NCBI RefSeq assembly: GCF_038595005.1
Contig: NZ_CP151997.1
Location: 1,550,001-1,614,000, forward strand
DNA: 64,000 nt
Origin: Chryseomicrobium sp. FSL W7-1435
GTDB taxonomy: Bacteria > Bacillota > Bacilli > Bacillales_A > Planococcaceae
Direction: 5' to 3'
In this document: one piece after another, positions 5,370 to 41,860 of the stretch
Layout: each line of letters starts with the position of its first letter
How positions within the stretch are numbered: position 1 is the first letter of the stretch
Position numbers and translations under genes: made by a program
The notes under the pieces: model-generated
The model's database searches: none
What the model was told of the DNA's origin: nothing
Seen by the model: the letters and a program-made list of their open reading frames with translations, nothing else

Positions 5370-5939
5370 ATGAAAAAAATTGGTCTGTTAGGTGGCACTT
5401 TCAATCCGCCGCATTTTGGTCACCTATTAATAGCGAATGAAGTGAAAAATGCTCTACAACTAGATGAAATTCATTTTATGCCGGCTGCTCAATCGCCATT
5501 TAAGGCAAAAGAGACGCGTGTCACAGATGCACATCGAGTCGCAATGGTTGAACTTTTGACAGAGGAATTACCTGCTTCAAAAGTAGAAACGTTTGAAATA
5601 GAACGTGGAGGTGTTTCCTATACATTTGACACCTTGCAAGAGCTTGTCTCAAGAAATCCTGGGACACACTATTCTTTCATCATTGGCGCCGATCAAGTGG
5701 AAAAACTAGCAGACTGGTATAAAATTGATCAGTTAGTAAAGCTCGTTGAGTTAATAGGTGTTCCCAGACCGGGGTATAGCTTGGAAACGAATTATCCAAT
5801 CAACGTGTTGTCAATCCCTCAGTTAGAGGTGTCATCCACTGAACTTCGAGAGCGCTTAGCGCTCGGAGAGACAACTCGCTTTTTACTTCCTGAAAAAGTG
5901 GCAGCTTATTGTGAAAGGAATGAACTTTATGCTAACTAG
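5370..5939 (+). CDS. nadD: Nicotinate-nucleotide adenylyltransferase
   Basis: NadD adenylylates nicotinate mononucleotide to deamido-NAD in NAD synthesis. The nucleotidyltransferase signature GGTFNPPHFGHL is at residues 8–19, and the second motif SSTELRERL (ISSTxxR type) is near the C-terminus. The length of 189 residues is typical. It follows yqeI by three bases, and its last 11 bases overlap the preferred yqeK start. Confidence 0.96.
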   Translation: MKKIGLLGGTFNPPHFGHLLIANEVKNALQLDEIHFMPAAQSPFKAKETRVTDAHRVAMVELLTEELPASKVETFEIERGGVSYTFDTLQELVSRNPGTHYSFIIGADQVEKLADWYKIDQLVKLVELIGVPRPGYSLETNYPINVLSIPQLEVSSTELRERLALGETTRFLLPEKVAAYCERNELYAN

Positions 5940-12879: not shown

Positions 12880-13812
12880 ATGAGACCAAGTGATTTGGAA
12901 TTAGAAATCGTTGAAGCGACAACTGCCAGTCATCCTATTATGCAGGAAAAACACGGAGAAATCCAGGTTTCCACGTTCGCAAAGAAAAATAAAGATCAGA
13001 TGGACCAGTTCGTATCTATTGAACATGCAGATTTGGTTGTAGAAGACTTAACCGCTTTTGAAGAACTAGCAGGTCACATTACATCTGAACTAAAGAAGCT
13101 GCTTACAATTTCAAAAGGGAAAATTTGCATTGTAGGGCTAGGGAATCACTGGATGACGGCCGATGCTCTAGGTCCACGCATCATTCAAAAGCTCCAACAA
13201 CAGTACACGTTTCTTCAACAAGAGCGTGTCATTCTTTTGCAACCCGGAGTCAGCCTACAATCAGGGATGGAAACCACTCACTATGTAAAAGCCATTGTCG
13301 AATCAATGAAGCCTAGTGTGGTTTTAGCGTTTGATTCATTACGTGCAGCTACTCAATCGAGACTTTGTCGATTTGTTCAAATGACTAACGCCGGCATCCA
13401 ACCGGGATCGGGGATTTTGAGTAAACGGCAAGAACTACATTTTCGAACGTTAGGTGTACCAGTCATTGCGATAGGAGTCCCCACGGTTGTCTCGACATTG
13501 GATGTGACGCATCAGCAACTCGACTATGCCTTGCAGCATTTTTTAAATCGTTTAGAGGCAAAAGGAACAAAAAACCCACTAGCCAGTGTCGCGTACTGGC
13601 AGGCTGAAGACAAAGACCTTTCTTCTCTAGCTCATGTATTTGGGGAGTGGGCACGTATGTCCACAGAAGAAAGAAAGCAATTTATTTTTGAAAATGCAGG
13701 CCATACAGATCGTATTGTGACGCCTACCAATATTCATGAATGGATTGAGCGGTGGTCGGATTTATTCGTGTCCGTTCTACTAGACGTTCTAGCACAACCG
13801 GCTCCCTCATAA
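12880..13812 (+). CDS. gpr: Germination protease GPR (spore SASP-specific endopeptidase)
   Basis: GPR degrades small acid-soluble spore proteins during germination (peptidase family A25). The two conserved aspartate contexts are present: MTADALGPR and VLAFDSLRAA, followed by GIQPGSGI and LGVPVIAIGVPTVV. At 310 residues it is shorter than the usual ~370. The start is fixed by GAGGTG before ATG 12880, and the upstream frame contains no ATG, GTG or TTG before a stop at 12844. SDLELEIVEA near the N-terminus corresponds to the mature TDLAVE segment of Bacillus GPR, so almost no propeptide is encoded. spoIIP follows immediately, as in Bacillus. Confidence 0.9.
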   Translation: MRPSDLELEIVEATTASHPIMQEKHGEIQVSTFAKKNKDQMDQFVSIEHADLVVEDLTAFEELAGHITSELKKLLTISKGKICIVGLGNHWMTADALGPRIIQKLQQQYTFLQQERVILLQPGVSLQSGMETTHYVKAIVESMKPSVVLAFDSLRAATQSRLCRFVQMTNAGIQPGSGILSKRQELHFRTLGVPVIAIGVPTVVSTLDVTHQQLDYALQHFLNRLEAKGTKNPLASVAYWQAEDKDLSSLAHVFGEWARMSTEERKQFIFENAGHTDRIVTPTNIHEWIERWSDLFVSVLLDVLAQPAPS

Positions 13813-13835
13813 AGTAACAGTAAAGGAGGGGTCCT

Positions 13836-14612
13836 ATTCGAATTGCACAAGTTGTTTTCCTATCTATAGTCTGCTTATTTCTACTACCTATCGTACAGCA
13901 TGCATATGGAAGCCATGCTCCTCCTCTGAACGTAACACATGCAGATGAGTCTCTTGACCCCGCTTGGAAAGAAGAGACTATCACCATTCGTCAATCTGAA
14001 TCAAGTGTGCTTTTTTATTTCACGCACTCTCAAGAAGCGTACCCTGGTGTCGGGCAAGCAAATAAGAAGCTTCAGCCCGTCTATCATCCAACCGTAAATA
14101 TAACAAATTTTACGGACGCGATTGTAACGTCTTTTGCAAAACATCAAGTGGTTGCGCATTCTCTAGAAGTAGATACGATGCAACTCCTAACAAAACAACA
14201 AAAAGGGTTTGATCAAGCGTATGCAACGGTGCGACCTCATGTGAAAGACGCCCTGTAGAAGGAGTCTGTTCACTATGTCATCGACTTCCATCGGGATTCG
14301 GCAAAGCGCGCTGTTACTACATTGGAGACTGCAAATGGTGATTACGCAAAGCTGATGTTTATTGTAGGTGGCGAGCATGAAGGATTTGAAAAAAACAAAG
14401 CATTGGCAGAGGCTTTATCGAAACAACTTGAAAGGCAAGTACCGGGTATTTCTCGTGGCGTTCTAGTTAAAAAAGGAAGAGGTGTAGACGGTATTTATAA
14501 TCAAGACCTTCACCCGGCTTCACTTCTAATTGAACTAGGTGGTATTGAAAATCAACCACATGAAGTGGAAGCTGCAATCGAGCAAATTGCGCTTGCTATC
14601 GACAACCTGTAA
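13836..14612 (+). pseudogene. spoIIP: Stage II sporulation protein P, interrupted by an in-frame amber codon
   Basis: SpoIIP is a peptidoglycan amidase/endopeptidase that works with SpoIID and SpoIIM in forespore engulfment. Reading frame 3 gives a signal-like N-terminus (RIAQVVFLSIVCLFLLPIV), the metal motif YFTHSQEAYPG, YHPTVNIT and VRPHVKDAL, then TAG at 14256–14258. The same frame continues without a gap: YVIDFHRDS, DYAKLMFIVGG, GVDGIYNQDL and LLIELGG. Everything either side of TAG aligns with the family, so a one-base change at a codon that is Lys/Gln/Glu in homologues is the simplest cause. The apparent start is ATT 13836, six bases after AGGAGG. The N-terminal half is also shorter than in B. 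subtilis (~400 residues). Confidence 0.85.
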
Positions 14613-14690: not shown

Positions 14691-16523
14691 ATGAATAACG
14701 AAGAACGATTAAATAGACAGAGCAGGATTCGGAACTTTTCCATCATCGCCCATATTGATCACGGAAAATCGACGCTTGCTGACCGTATTTTAGAAAAAAC
14801 ACAGACTGTTAGCAGTCGAGAGATGAAGAGCCAGCTTTTAGATTCGATGGATCTTGAACGCGAGCGAGGCATCACAATCAAATTAAACGCTGTGCAATTG
14901 CTATACAAAGCAAAAGACGGCGAGACGTATACGTTTCACTTAATTGACACGCCAGGGCATGTCGATTTCACGTATGAAGTATCACGTAGTCTAGCAGCAT
15001 GTGAAGGCGCTATTTTAGTAGTCGATGCAGCACAAGGAATCGAAGCGCAAACACTTGCCAACGTCTATTTGGCCTTAGACAATGACTTAGAAATTTTGCC
15101 AGTTATCAATAAAATTGATTTACCAGCTGCTGACCCTGAGCGCGTACGTGCCGAAGTTGAAGAAGTAATAGGTCTTGATGCTTCTGAAGCAGTACTTGCT
15201 TCTGCAAAAGCTGGGATTGGTATTGAAGAAATTTTAGAACAAATCGTTGAAAAAGTGCCAGCTCCTACTGGAGATCCAGAAGCACCATTAAAAGCATTGA
15301 TTTTTGACTCTTTATTTGATCCTTATCGTGGCGTAATTTGTTACGTGCGTATTGTACAAGGTAAAGTAAGCCCAGGAGATCGCTTGAAAATGATGGCTTC
15401 GGGCAAAGAATTTGATGTTGTTGAAACAGGTGTATTCACACCTAAAGCTACTCAACGTGCCGAGCTATCAGTTGGGGATGTTGGATTTATAACTGCATCT
15501 ATGAAAGACGTTGGAGATTCTGCAGTGGGGGATACAATCACACTGGCGAACAATCCTGCATCAGAAGCACTGCCTGGCTATCGTAAAATGAACCCAATGG
15601 TTTTCTGTGGTTTATACCCGATTGATAATTCAAGATACAACGACTTACGTGATGCGCTTGAAAAATTACAGTTAAACGATGCAGCTCTTGAATTTGAACC
15701 AGAAAGCTCACAAGCCCTAGGATTTGGGTATCGCTGTGGTTTCTTAGGCTTACTGCACATGGAAATTATTCAAGAACGTATTGAACGTGAATTTAAAATT
15801 GATTTAATCACAACGGCACCGAGTGTAATTTACAATGTCAACATGACAAATGGTGACGTGATTCGTGTAGATAACCCATCTATGATGCCTGATCCGCAAA
15901 AAATCAACAAAATGGAAGAGCCTTACGTGAAAGCATCTATCATGGTTCCAGAAGATTATGTAGGTGCTGTTATGGAATTATGTCAACGCAAACGCGGAAA
16001 CTTCTTAACGATGGATTATTTATCTTCCGCTCGTGTAAACATTCTTTATGAGATTCCTTTATCTGAAATAGTTTACGATTTCTTTGACTCCTTGAAATCT
16101 AGTACAAAAGGGTATGCATCTTTTGACTATGAATTGATTGGCTATAGAGAATCAAAACTTCAAAAAATGGATATCTTACTAAATGGTGAAAAAGTCGATG
16201 CATTGAGTTTCATCGTTCACAGTGATTTTGCATACGAACGTGGGAAACTGATTGTAGAGAAATTAAAAAGTTTGATTCCTCGTCAACAGTTTGAGGTTCC
16301 CGTTCAAGCAGCAGTCGGACAAAAAATTGTCGCTCGTTCTACCATCAAATCGATGGGGAAAAATGTTCTTGCTAAATGTTACGGTGGGGATATTTCTCGA
16401 AAACGTAAATTACTAGATAAGCAAAAAGAAGGTAAGAAACGTATGAAACAGGTCGGTTCCGTAGAAGTTCCTCAAGAGGCATTTATGGCTGTATTGAAAA
16501 TGGACGAAGATCAGAAAAAATAA
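14691..16523 (+). CDS. lepA: Elongation factor 4 (LepA)
   Basis: LepA is a translational GTPase that binds the ribosome and affects translocation and initiation. The G motifs are clear: [13 protein letters not shown] (G1), RGITIK (G2), DTPGH (G3) and NKIDLP (G4), followed by EF-G-like domains and the LepA-specific C-terminal domain ([21 protein letters not shown] segment). The length of 610 is standard. GGAG precedes the ATG, and it has its own promoter after the spoIIP remnant. Confidence 0.97.
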
Positions 16524-29768: not shown

Positions 29769-29816
29769 AAACACCTTTTCTCTCACATATTGTTGTGAGA
29801 GAGAGGTGTTTTTTTG
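29769..29816 (+). terminator. Terminator whose 3' arm contains the yqfC ribosome binding site
   Basis: AACACC…TCTCTCAC and GTGAGAGAgAGGTGTT form a stem of about 14 bp followed by TTTTTTTG. It ends the yqeZ-floA transcript. AGAGGTG in the 3' arm is also the only ribosome binding site for yqfC, whose TTG start lies at the end of the T-tract. CATATTGT at 29786–29793 in the loop matches the SigE -10 pattern CATAnnnT. Confidence 0.75.
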
Positions 29817-30038
29817 TTTGATTTATCTTATATAGAAACAAATTTGAGCACGTATCTTGTTATTAAATCACCGGTTCGGCTTCAGAGTGTTACTCCCCAT
29901 ACAAGTATGCTAGTTACCAACCAGTTTCATATTGATTTAGAAGCCTCCAGTATAATCATACGGCATTATAGTGAAGACTTACTTGAACTTACTTTTAAAG
30001 GACTGACAAAATTTGCGGTTCAAAAATTACAGGATTAA
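29814..30038 (+). CDS. yqfC: Sporulation protein YqfC
   Basis: This is a small mother-cell protein of unknown biochemical function, belonging to the YabP/YqfC family. The protein has 74 residues, with TNQFHIDLEASSIIIRHYSEDLLELTFKG typical of the family's beta-rich core. The start is TTG 29814, five bases after AGAGGTG, both sited at the end of a terminator hairpin. It overlaps yqfD by 26 bases. In B. subtilis yqfC-yqfD is SigE dependent, and a SigE-like -10 lies in the hairpin loop. Confidence 0.83.
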   Translation: MFDLSYIETNLSTYLVIKSPVRLQSVTPHTSMLVTNQFHIDLEASSIIIRHYSEDLLELTFKGLTKFAVQKLQD

Positions 30039-30948
30039 AGCTCGAATAGAAGGAACTGAACAACAACTTCAAAAATTTTTAACTTTGCTCTATGAACTAC
30101 AAAAAGTGCCTCTCTATAATCTCCAGAGACTTGATGGGTATTTGTATTTTGAAATGAATCAAACGGACATTTCAACGATTAAATCGATTCGTTTTCAAGC
30201 TGGGGTGCGCCTTTCCCTTACTCATACAAGCTTTCACCTTTTTCGAAATCCTCTTCTAATAGTGGCGCTGCTTATTTTTTTAGCACTGCCACTTGCTAGT
30301 CATTATTTTTATTTTTCTGTTTCGATTACGGGAGACGAGGCACATCAACAGGCAGTTGAAGACTATTTATTAAAAGAAAAGCTAACTTTTCCCTTACTTA
30401 AAAAAGAATTGCCACCAATTGAAAGAATCCGAAACGAACTTATGAAAAAACACGCCTCCATGGCATGGGTGATGATCGATAAAGAATCTGCCGAATTAAC
30501 AATTTCCATCGTGCCAGCTCCTGATCCAATAGATCCTCAAGATTGGCCTGAAGCCACAAAATTTGTAGCAGCTTATGACGGGCAAATTGAACGTGTGCAA
30601 CTGTTAGCTGGCGAGAGCTTAGTGGAGCGAAAATCTATTGTATCTAAAGGAGATATTTTGGCCATTGGAAGCAAAGGGGAAAAAGCGAAAGGGATTATAG
30701 TAGGGACGTATTGGCGAGAGATTGAATTTGAACTCCTAACCAAAGAGAAAAAATTTGATTTTGAGTCTAGCCACCTTTCAGAACTCATTCGGCAATTTGT
30801 AACTGAAAGTAAGGGGGAGACGACTATTCAAGGAGTAAAAGTTTTACAGGTGCAAAATGAAAATGGTAAAGTAAGAGGGAAGGTACTAGTCAAAATTCAA
30901 GGCATCATTACGAAACCTGAGTACCTTAAGGAGACATTGAATGACTGA
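30013..30948 (+). CDS. yqfD: Sporulation protein YqfD
   Basis: A membrane protein of the YqfD family, made in the mother cell during sporulation; its action is unknown. One transmembrane helix near residues 78–100 (FRNPLLIVALLIFLALPLASHYF) separates a small cytoplasmic part from a larger external domain (VSITGDEAHQQAVEDYLL…, DGQIERVQLLAGESLVERKSIVSKGDIL). At 311 residues it is well short of B. subtilis YqfD (398). The start is TTG 30013 with AAAGGACTGA upstream, inside yqfC. Its 3' end overlaps phoH by eight bases. Confidence 0.85.
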   Translation: MRFKNYRIKARIEGTEQQLQKFLTLLYELQKVPLYNLQRLDGYLYFEMNQTDISTIKSIRFQAGVRLSLTHTSFHLFRNPLLIVALLIFLALPLASHYFYFSVSITGDEAHQQAVEDYLLKEKLTFPLLKKELPPIERIRNELMKKHASMAWVMIDKESAELTISIVPAPDPIDPQDWPEATKFVAAYDGQIERVQLLAGESLVERKSIVSKGDILAIGSKGEKAKGIIVGTYWREIEFELLTKEKKFDFESSHLSELIRQFVTESKGETTIQGVKVLQVQNENGKVRGKVLVKIQGIITKPEYLKETLND

Positions 30949-31894
30949 GGAAAAACTCGAAATCAAAGTGAACGACCCAAATGAAGCCGTTCAGCTTCAT
31001 GGAAATGGGGACAAAAACTTTGCGCTTATTGAAGACAACTTTTCAGTCCAACTCATCTCAAGAGGAGATACTTTCCTCATTACTGGGCAAGAAGAAGACG
31101 TGAAAAAAGCGCAAGGTGTCATTAACGTGTTACTTGAATTGATTCGTAAAGGAATACTAATTAACGAGCGTGATGTAGTTGCTGCTCTAGAGATGGAGAA
31201 AGCAGGTACAATCGATTATTTTGTTCGCCTTTATGAAGAAGAAATTGCGCGTACAGTAAAAGGCAAAGTAATTCGTGCCAAGTCAATTGGTCAACGAGCT
31301 TACGTAAAAGGTATCAAGAACTTTGACCTTACATTTGGGATTGGGCCAGCGGGTACGGGGAAAACGTATTTAGCGGTTGTCATGGCTTCTCAAGCGTTAA
31401 AGAATGGTTTAGTAAAACGTATCATCCTGACTCGTCCTGCTGTTGAGGCTGGCGAGAGCCTTGGTTTTCTTCCGGGTGATCTTAAAGAAAAAGTAGATCC
31501 TTATCTGCGTCCTTTATATGATGCATTACATGACGTCATTGGAGCTGAGCAAACGGAACGGTTACTTGAACGAGGTGTTATTGAAATTGCGCCACTTGCC
31601 TATATGCGTGGACGTACACTAGATGATGCATTTGTTATTTTAGATGAAGCGCAAAACACGACACCTGCACAGATGAAAATGTTTTTAACACGTCTTGGAT
31701 TCGGTTCTAAGATGGTCATCACAGGCGATAAGACGCAAATTGATTTACCGAAAAATACGAAATCGGGATTAATGATTGCAGAAACAATGCTGAAATCAGT
31801 AAAAGGAATCCAATTTCATTATTTAGAACAAGGGGACGTCGTTCGTCATCCACTAGTTGCTAAAATTATACAAGCATATGAAGAAGGGCAGTAG
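30941..31894 (+). CDS. phoH: PhoH-like ATPase
   Basis: PhoH is an RNA-binding ATPase of the RecA-like fold. Walker A is GPAGTGKTYLA and Walker B is FVILDEAQN, followed by LTRLGFGSKMVITGDKTQIDLP. The KH-like N-terminal domain precedes it. The 317-residue length is usual. AAGGAG lies before the ATG. It overlaps yqfD and sits upstream of pgpH and ybeY, an arrangement conserved widely and linked to rRNA maturation. Confidence 0.95.
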   Translation: MTEEKLEIKVNDPNEAVQLHGNGDKNFALIEDNFSVQLISRGDTFLITGQEEDVKKAQGVINVLLELIRKGILINERDVVAALEMEKAGTIDYFVRLYEEEIARTVKGKVIRAKSIGQRAYVKGIKNFDLTFGIGPAGTGKTYLAVVMASQALKNGLVKRIILTRPAVEAGESLGFLPGDLKEKVDPYLRPLYDALHDVIGAEQTERLLERGVIEIAPLAYMRGRTLDDAFVILDEAQNTTPAQMKMFLTRLGFGSKMVITGDKTQIDLPKNTKSGLMIAETMLKSVKGIQFHYLEQGDVVRHPLVAKIIQAYEEGQ

Positions 31895-40042: not shown

Positions 40043-41860
40043 ATGGCTAAACATGTGGAAGATGAAGTGATTGAACAAGTAAGGTCTTCTGTTGATATTG
40101 TGGATGTCATTGGTGAATATGTTCAGCTAACCAAACGAGGAAGAAACCACTTTGGTTTATGCCCGTTTCATGGTGAACAAACTCCTTCCTTTTCTGTTGC
40201 TCAAGAGAAACAAATATTTCATTGCTTCGGTTGTGGAGCAGGTGGAAATGTCATTACGTTTTTGATGGATATCGAAGGGTTGAGCTTTCAACAAACGATT
40301 AATCGACTGGCAGATCGCAGTGGGATGGAGCTTCATCTAGAAGAAGGAAATGCTGCAAAAGAAGTCGCAAAAAATCCATTGCAAGACAAATGGAAAAGTG
40401 CACACACATTTGCAGCGTCTTATTATCATCATCTTCTTCTCAACACGGTTGAAGGAGAGCAAGCACTCGCTTACTTAAAAAATCGTGGTATTGATGAAGA
40501 CACTATCAAAAAATTTCAGATAGGGTGGAGCTTGCCGGGCTGGGAAAATCTCGCAACACTTTTACAGCAACGTGACTACGATCTAGCTGAAATGGAGAAG
40601 TGTGGACTTGTCGTCCGTCAAGAACAAGCAGAGCGTTACTTTGACCGATTCAGAGGCCGCATTATGTTCCCTGTGGCAGATGATAAAGGTCAAACGATTG
40701 CTTTTTCTGGTCGAATTTTAGATAATTCAGCTGATGAAGCCAAATATCTAAACAGTCCAGAGAGCGAACTGTTTCAAAAAAATGATGTTCTCTACAATTT
40801 ACACAATGCACGAATGGCCATTCGACAGAAGAAGCAAGTGTTGTTGTCTGAAGGATTTTTGGATGTAATTGCTTTTGCGAGGTCGGGTGTTGATCATGTA
40901 GTGGGCACCATGGGAACTGCATTGACACAAAACCATATCACGCGATTGAAACGTTTGACGACAAATTTCGTCTTTTGTTTTGATGGCGATAAAGCGGGCA
41001 TGGAGGCTACCAAAAAAGCGTTCACCGCAACTGACGGTAAGCAACTCCAACGAACGGCACTTGTTTTGCCAAATCAAACAGATCCAGATGATTTTGTTGC
41101 ACAGCATGGTACAGAAGCACTTCAAAAATTTGCTACTGAAAAAGGACTGTCAGAAATGGCATTCGCCATGATGTATTACCGCAAAGGAATCAATTTGCAA
41201 AATGATTCCGATGTTCTTCACTACACAGATCAAGTAGTTGAAGTGCTCGCAAAATCTGACTCTCCAATTGAACAATCGTATTATACGAAACAATTAGCAG
41301 ATGAAGTGGGTATTGATCAAGGTGTGATTGAACATCAATTGCGCAAACTGCTGGCGCAGAGAGCGCGTTCAGAACAAGCACCTCGACGAGAGCAACGAGT
41401 TGTGGCACCTGAGAAAAAAACACAAAAGCTTGATGCTACTAGTAGAGCTGAGTATTTATTACTTGCGCATCTGCTGGATGATCCCACTGCACTTCATTCA
41501 CTCGGTATTGCAGAAGACATGGAATTGTTTGTGCATGATGAAATCATCGAATCCTTTATTCAATTGATGGCATTCTATGAAAGATATCCGCAGGGTGATT
41601 TTCAGAGATTACTTGAAGTGACAGAAAATGCAGATTTAAAGAAAATCTATATGTTTGCCACAATGATGGATAAAGACCCAGAAAGTAGCAAAAAAGAAAT
41701 AGAAGATAGTATGCGTCAACTACGCAAATATCGGGTAGAGAAACGTATTGAACAGTTAATGCACGAATCAAAAATAGCTGAAAAGCTTGCAGATTACACA
41801 AAAGCGTTAGAGCTTGCTAAACAAGCGATTGAACTCAAACGTACCATTCACACAGTCTAG
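40043..41860 (+). CDS. dnaG: DNA primase
   Basis: DnaG makes RNA primers for replication. The N-terminal zinc-binding domain reads CPFHGEQTPSF…HCFGCGAGGNV; the TOPRIM core includes LSEGFLDVIAFARSG and FCFDGDKAGMEA; the C-terminal helicase-interacting domain is divergent, as usual. It is 605 residues. AGAAGG precedes the ATG. rpoD follows, preserving the macromolecular synthesis operon, while yqxD, usually upstream in Bacillus, is absent. Confidence 0.97.
   Translation: MAKHVEDEVIEQVRSSVDIVDVIGEYVQLTKRGRNHFGLCPFHGEQTPSFSVAQEKQIFHCFGCGAGGNVITFLMDIEGLSFQQTINRLADRSGMELHLEEGNAAKEVAKNPLQDKWKSAHTFAASYYHHLLLNTVEGEQALAYLKNRGIDEDTIKKFQIGWSLPGWENLATLLQQRDYDLAEMEKCGLVVRQEQAERYFDRFRGRIMFPVADDKGQTIAFSGRILDNSADEAKYLNSPESELFQKNDVLYNLHNARMAIRQKKQVLLSEGFLDVIAFARSGVDHVVGTMGTALTQNHITRLKRLTTNFVFCFDGDKAGMEATKKAFTATDGKQLQRTALVLPNQTDPDDFVAQHGTEALQKFATEKGLSEMAFAMMYYRKGINLQNDSDVLHYTDQVVEVLAKSDSPIEQSYYTKQLADEVGIDQGVIEHQLRKLLAQRARSEQAPRREQRVVAPEKKTQKLDATSRAEYLLLAHLLDDPTALHSLGIAEDMELFVHDEIIESFIQLMAFYERYPQGDFQRLLEVTENADLKKIYMFATMMDKDPESSKKEIEDSMRQLRKYRVEKRIEQLMHESKIAEKLADYTKALELAKQAIELKRTIHTV

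Follow-up and report, generated by a model that had tools for sequence, protein, structure and literature searches.

SpoIIP is an amidase and endopeptidase that degrades septal peptidoglycan during engulfment, a step of sporulation; Bacilli have commonly lost the ability to sporulate, and this is usually seen once the genes are already gone. Spore-forming Planococcaceae encode a short form of SpoIIP, with gpr upstream and lepA downstream, an order common to the relatives of the strain studied here. Among 15 aligned relatives, 13 have proteins of 260-294 aa and two, from Jeotgalibacillus, are longer (372-373 aa). Across the taxonomic family, 203 of 261 genomes gave a SpoIIP match, and outside the genus Chryseomicrobium the matches listed in this search are free of internal stops. 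In C. difficile, neither the activity of SpoIIP nor sporulation is reported to withstand the loss of H142 or of H222 (PMC6221140). Asporogenous Bacilli have lost sporulation genes and kept Spo0A, and non-spore-formers positive for Spo0A have been tabulated (PMC3533761).

The spoIIP locus of Chryseomicrobium sp. FSL W7-1435 lies in the window analysed here (the whole stretch of 64,000 nucleotides). It has the same gene order, falls in the same length class as the 13 shorter proteins and shares with Planococcaceae SpoIIP both catalytic-type histidines, the NQDL motif and the E-L-G-G segment. Unlike them, it has an internal TAG and lacks an ATG, GTG or TTG start, and it offers no single uninterrupted translatable frame. 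The features are as follows:

12880..13812, + strand: gpr, an open 310-aa frame, unusually divergent (TIGR01441, 197.1 bits)
13822..13829, + strand: ribosome-binding-like sequence AAAGGAGG, 6 nt before the spoIIP start position
13836..14612, + strand: spoIIP frame, short form, 258 codons from the start position to its own TAA (PF07454)
13836..13838, + strand: ATT in the place of the spoIIP start codon, aligned with the first Met of three relatives
14025..14027, + strand: first conserved His (FTHSQEAY), H64, before the stop, invariant in the alignment with three relatives
14256..14258, + strand: in-frame TAG, codon 141 of spoIIP (frame reading and alignment with 15 relatives)
14289..14291, + strand: second conserved His (DFHRDS), H152, after the stop, invariant in the same three-relative alignment
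14322..14324, + strand: TTG, the first in-frame ATG, GTG or TTG after the spoIIP TAG, past the second His
14691..16523, + strand: lepA, intact, the anchor for named relatives

We consider it likely that spoIIP is here an ordinary pseudogene, with its start lost and codon 141 turned into TAG, and not a case of special decoding.

The identity of the gene is clear from its family match. A profile search of the whole genome, a single contig of 2,710,361 bases with a completeness of 100, gave one PF07454 match (142.5 bits) with one TAG inside. The same search of this 2.71 Mb genome returned no second SpoIIP, the intact copy on which the earlier note had thought its reading might founder. The 140-aa piece before the TAG scores 28.2 bits (profile positions 70-155) and the 117-aa piece after it 104.5 bits (159-268), each exceeding on its own the gathering cut-off of 24.4 bits; read through, the frame gives one match of 144.8 bits (71-268). 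Because both halves match the family collinearly and become one match when read through, we take this to be one interrupted spoIIP and not a chance frame. The C-terminal segment E233-L-G-G is also invariant in the alignment with three relatives, and going by the order of the motifs, unaligned, H64 and H152 would be the counterparts of C. difficile H142 and H222. A search of the genome contigs confirmed no relatives of the read-through protein, and among solved structures there was a chance-level match alone (5ap8, E 0.22). Two promoter-like and no terminator-like sites were found between 13700 and 14720, which is the chance level.

The earlier note had described an in-frame amber codon at this place, free of any insertion or deletion, with the quoted motifs on either side. 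The frame and the two PF07454 halves bear out the stop, all the motifs were found, and the alignment with 15 relatives has no gap at the TAG (an extra residue stands a few columns further on in two Jeotgalibacillus rows). The TAG parts the two conserved histidines, and the second half indeed has no suitable restart before its His. Seven different residues occupy the TAG column in the 15 relatives, none of which has a stop there. Directly 3' of the TAG stands AAGGAG, followed by an out-of-frame ATG at 14275 (14259-14277), probably a coincidence.

The start of the gene carries a second lesion, which the earlier note had missed. The spoIIP frame is closed upstream by an in-frame TAA at 13821, and from there onward it contains no ATG, GTG or TTG before the GTG at 14007, which lies past the signal peptide. 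The ATT stands at the same distance from the L-[LM]-P-I segment (L-L-P-I here) as the start codon of one relative (L150), so that the spoIIP start codon appears, from the alignment, to have been replaced by ATT. ATT is a listed start codon in translation table 11 and can act as a rare start; the ATT alone might thus be leaky, and together with the TAG it makes spoIIP best read as null. The gene in any case carries more than one disabling change.

A quite different reading is that spoIIP still works, with weak AUU initiation and UAG readthrough together yielding a little SpoIIP. We hold this to be extremely improbable, even with an intact frame after the stop, a start triplet that is listed in table 11 and a stop at a variable column, where many inserted residues should be tolerable. 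Conservation also speaks for it to some extent. In a leave-one-out count of invariant columns over 16 sequences (this strain and 15 relatives), which gives an advantage to sequences whose close neighbours are also included, the SpoIIP of this strain differs at three (positions 25, 71 and 176) of the 31 columns that are invariant in the others, and keeps 28. The other members have changed at 0-2 of 28-30, including Psychrobacillus (one of 29) and Paenisporosarcina (two of 30), which have no such close neighbours. These substitutions give little sign that SpoIIP was relaxed before its loss. Against a working gene, the two weak steps would multiply, SpoIIP is uninterrupted outside the genus among the matches listed, and no means of decoding the TAG was found. 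None of the 70 tRNAs read by ARAGORN, the Rfam matches obtained from 150 scored of 196 first-look candidates, has the anticodon CTA, and the amber suppressor tRNA that the earlier note had proposed to look for is therefore missing from this set. TAG is moreover a common stop, ending 10 of the 55 non-overlapping ORFs above 150 aa in the window, among them 5370-5939, 30941-31894 and 40043-41860, which the earlier note had named nadD, phoH and dnaG; its view that TAG is an ordinary stop in these genes and that genome-wide recoding is unlikely holds. It had also allowed for suppression of the codon as a way around the stop. Suppression alone would not restore spoIIP, because the start codon is gone as well.

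If spoIIP is the pseudogene that we favour, little or no protein would be initiated at the ATT, and any SpoIIP that was initiated would end before the second catalytic-type His. As SpoIIP degrades septal peptidoglycan in engulfment, engulfment should then fail in this strain, if B. subtilis and C. difficile are a guide.

The analysis drew on one assembled genome of the species, from one strain, and the stop, for which a single base suffices, could also stem from an error in sequencing or assembly or from a mutation that arose only in the culture sequenced. We judge this unlikely: two separate places would need to be wrong (13836-13838 and 14256-14258), the assembly is one complete contig, and the same gene has decayed elsewhere in the genus. 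In the three other Chryseomicrobium genomes examined (G001, G002 and G003), only 3' scraps of spoIIP are left. The PF07454 match covers 44 profile positions in G001 and 51 in G002 and is interrupted by in-frame stops in both; G003 has no PF07454 match but keeps a piece of 37 residues next to a gpr that is itself broken. The earlier note had suggested a comparison with sister strains; in these three sister genomes of the genus spoIIP is decayed, and the amber site lies outside the surviving pieces and cannot be compared, since all of them come from the 3' end. These scraps (L002, L085 and L086) lie upstream of lepA and are perhaps kept for holding its upstream region.

Most of the sporulation genes tested in the sisters are likewise fragmentary. 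The gpr gene has no match in G001 and is in pieces with stops in G002 and G003. SpoIID, the sigma-F, -G, -E and -K type factors, SpoIVA and SpoIIE matched pieces or other proteins only, apart from one doubtful SpoIID-type frame in G001. We did not accept this open 519-aa match (in three pieces) as an ortholog, a matter of judgement, given its 27-36% identity to SpoIID of FSL W7-1435; the neighbours of the latter are also missing from the stretch examined around it. In G003, SpoIIQ is present in two parts (79-82% identity) and the match to SpoIIIAC is full length. As in asporogenous Bacilli, Spo0A is kept in Chryseomicrobium: it is full length and above the family cut-off in all four genomes of the genus (L092-L095), and therefore probably serves something besides spores. 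Each of the four also has one uninterrupted match to a small acid-soluble spore protein (SASP), although most of the tested sporulation genes of the sisters are fragmentary. In FSL W7-1435 this is:

1477-1683 of locus L217 (G000:C1 near 1371069): intact alpha/beta-type SASP of this genome

In FSL W7-1435 itself the remainder of the programme looks very different. We located further frames by gene order and by searching the stretches that surround sporulation hits, and assembled 22 sporulation frames including spoIIP, with 5,502 codons in all and a single stop inside; the other 21 are open, though the frames were picked because they were open and truncated genes could count as intact. They include sigF, sigE, sigG, sigK, SpoIIE, SpoIVA, SpoIID and SpoIIQ. 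From the chance that a random substitution creates a stop, and assuming neutrality since the loss, a single stop implies that each site has undergone about 0.0014 neutral substitutions since relaxation, and at most 0.0068 (one-sided 95%). By comparison, lepA shows a four-fold-site difference of 0.600 (240 sites; JC 1.21, near saturation) from its closest named relative, Chryseomicrobium aureum DSM 105437 (95%). The sisters keep only scraps, so they probably lost sporulation much earlier, and the loss here would therefore be late and separate. Because 21 other sporulation frames are still open, the spoIIP lesions seem to be recent and to have arisen separately from those of the sisters.

Several of these frames are short or divergent although open. 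YqfD (29814-30948) is shorter, at 311 aa, than in two relatives (375-378 aa), and its C-terminal part is unmatched. The small frame before it, which occupies the position of yqfC, gave no Pfam match, and SpoIIGA matches only positions 2-199 of a profile of 284. In an NCBIfam scan of 27 proteins of this genome, 11 pass a sporulation family or subfamily cut-off, 10 match below it and six have no clear sporulation match. We rejected these cut-offs as a sign of decay: in a Sporosarcina-like control genome (G171), whose SpoIIP is nearly identical, by eye, to a named Sporosarcina record, five of seven proteins also fall below, and the cut-offs therefore cannot separate decay from divergence of the family.

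A similar caution applies to the spoIIIA operon, of which this genome has AC, AD, AE, AG and AH frames between efp and accB, and neither AA nor AB. SpoIIIAA is missing from all four genomes of the genus, where matches of 19-23 bits only, to parts of other proteins, were obtained. We do not take this absence as a sign of lost sporulation, because G171, G007 and G010 (the last two from another genus) and published spore-formers have an operon that is just as short. Spore-forming Sporosarcina and L. sphaericus are described with the same shortened operon or lack of SpoIIIAA (PMC7924749, PMC3533761), and the authors of one of these studies doubted the L. sphaericus sequence for its missing SpoIIIAA and short operon (PMC3533761). 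In G007 the efp-spoIIIAC segment occurs three times with unread bases at the joints (L224-L225, G007:C3 near 1582000-1587000), which looks like an assembly artefact. Proteins of the spoIIIA and spoIVB loci show greater divergence in this strain than two control lineages show from each other: SpoIIIAC (identity 0.40-0.43 against 0.61-0.76), SpoIIIAE (0.23-0.24 against 0.46-0.47), SpoIIIAH (0.46-0.47 against 0.58) and SpoIVB (0.33-0.35 against 0.47-0.49). SpoIIIAD was left out for G007 and G010, where the wrong frames aligned over 7-19 residues. Identities of accB, nusB and Spo0A are about equal to those of the control pair, and those of accC, efp and recN are somewhat lower.

The neighbouring gpr is strongly divergent. 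By the same leave-one-out count, Gpr of this strain has 26 changed and two missing of 66 columns that are invariant in the 15 relatives, against 0-1 changed of 38-39 in the other members (Psychrobacillus one of 39, Paenisporosarcina none of 38). Some of the altered residues (such as those in T-A-D-A-L and L-R-A) are common to this gene and the sister scraps, and it is for this reason that we think Gpr diverged before the sisters split; judging by these shared residues, it probably changed in an ancestor of the genus while still a gene.

The earlier note had further expected the strain to be blocked in sporulation. This was drawn from B. subtilis, and a survey that reports taxa without detected SpoIIP (PMC7924749) weakens it as a general rule. 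That survey detected no SpoIIP ortholog in nine of 97 Bacillus species, in Fictibacillus and in some other genera, and by its account a lack of SpoIIP need not always rule out sporulation. It is then conceivable that spoIIP is dead and the strain still sporulates, engulfing by means of another hydrolase. The 21 open sporulation frames and the intact SASP fit such spores, the surveyed taxa without detected SpoIIP include B. megaterium strains (PMC7924749), and seven of 62 loci that we tested have gpr with no spoIIP match. This nevertheless seems very unlikely to us, as the sisters have lost most of the tested sporulation genes and Gpr has failed to keep 28 of the 66 invariant residues. Two isolates assigned to the genus, whose 16S places them closest to C. 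amylolyticum and C. imtechense, were also among those scored as non-spore-forming, these being other strains than FSL W7-1435 (PMC8085925). A broader version, in which the remaining sporulation genes are still under selection, either for SpoIIP-free spores or for a use of sigma-F, -E, -G and -K free of engulfment, would mean that the sisters lost the programme and this lineage dropped the amidase only; we regard it as doubtful.

On the reading that we prefer, of an ordinary pseudogene, the strain differs from decayed asporogenous Bacilli in that most of the other sporulation frames examined are open. For that reason the decay looks early here, and FSL W7-1435 possibly represents an early stage of sporulation loss. 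A literature search found no publications joining sporulation loss, pseudogenes and Planococcaceae. The amber codon itself has an ordinary answer, and its context adds somewhat more interest: one species seemingly caught near the start of sporulation loss, beside sisters in which mostly fragments are left. If this timing holds, it would become possible to test directly in what order the parts of a developmental programme fail.
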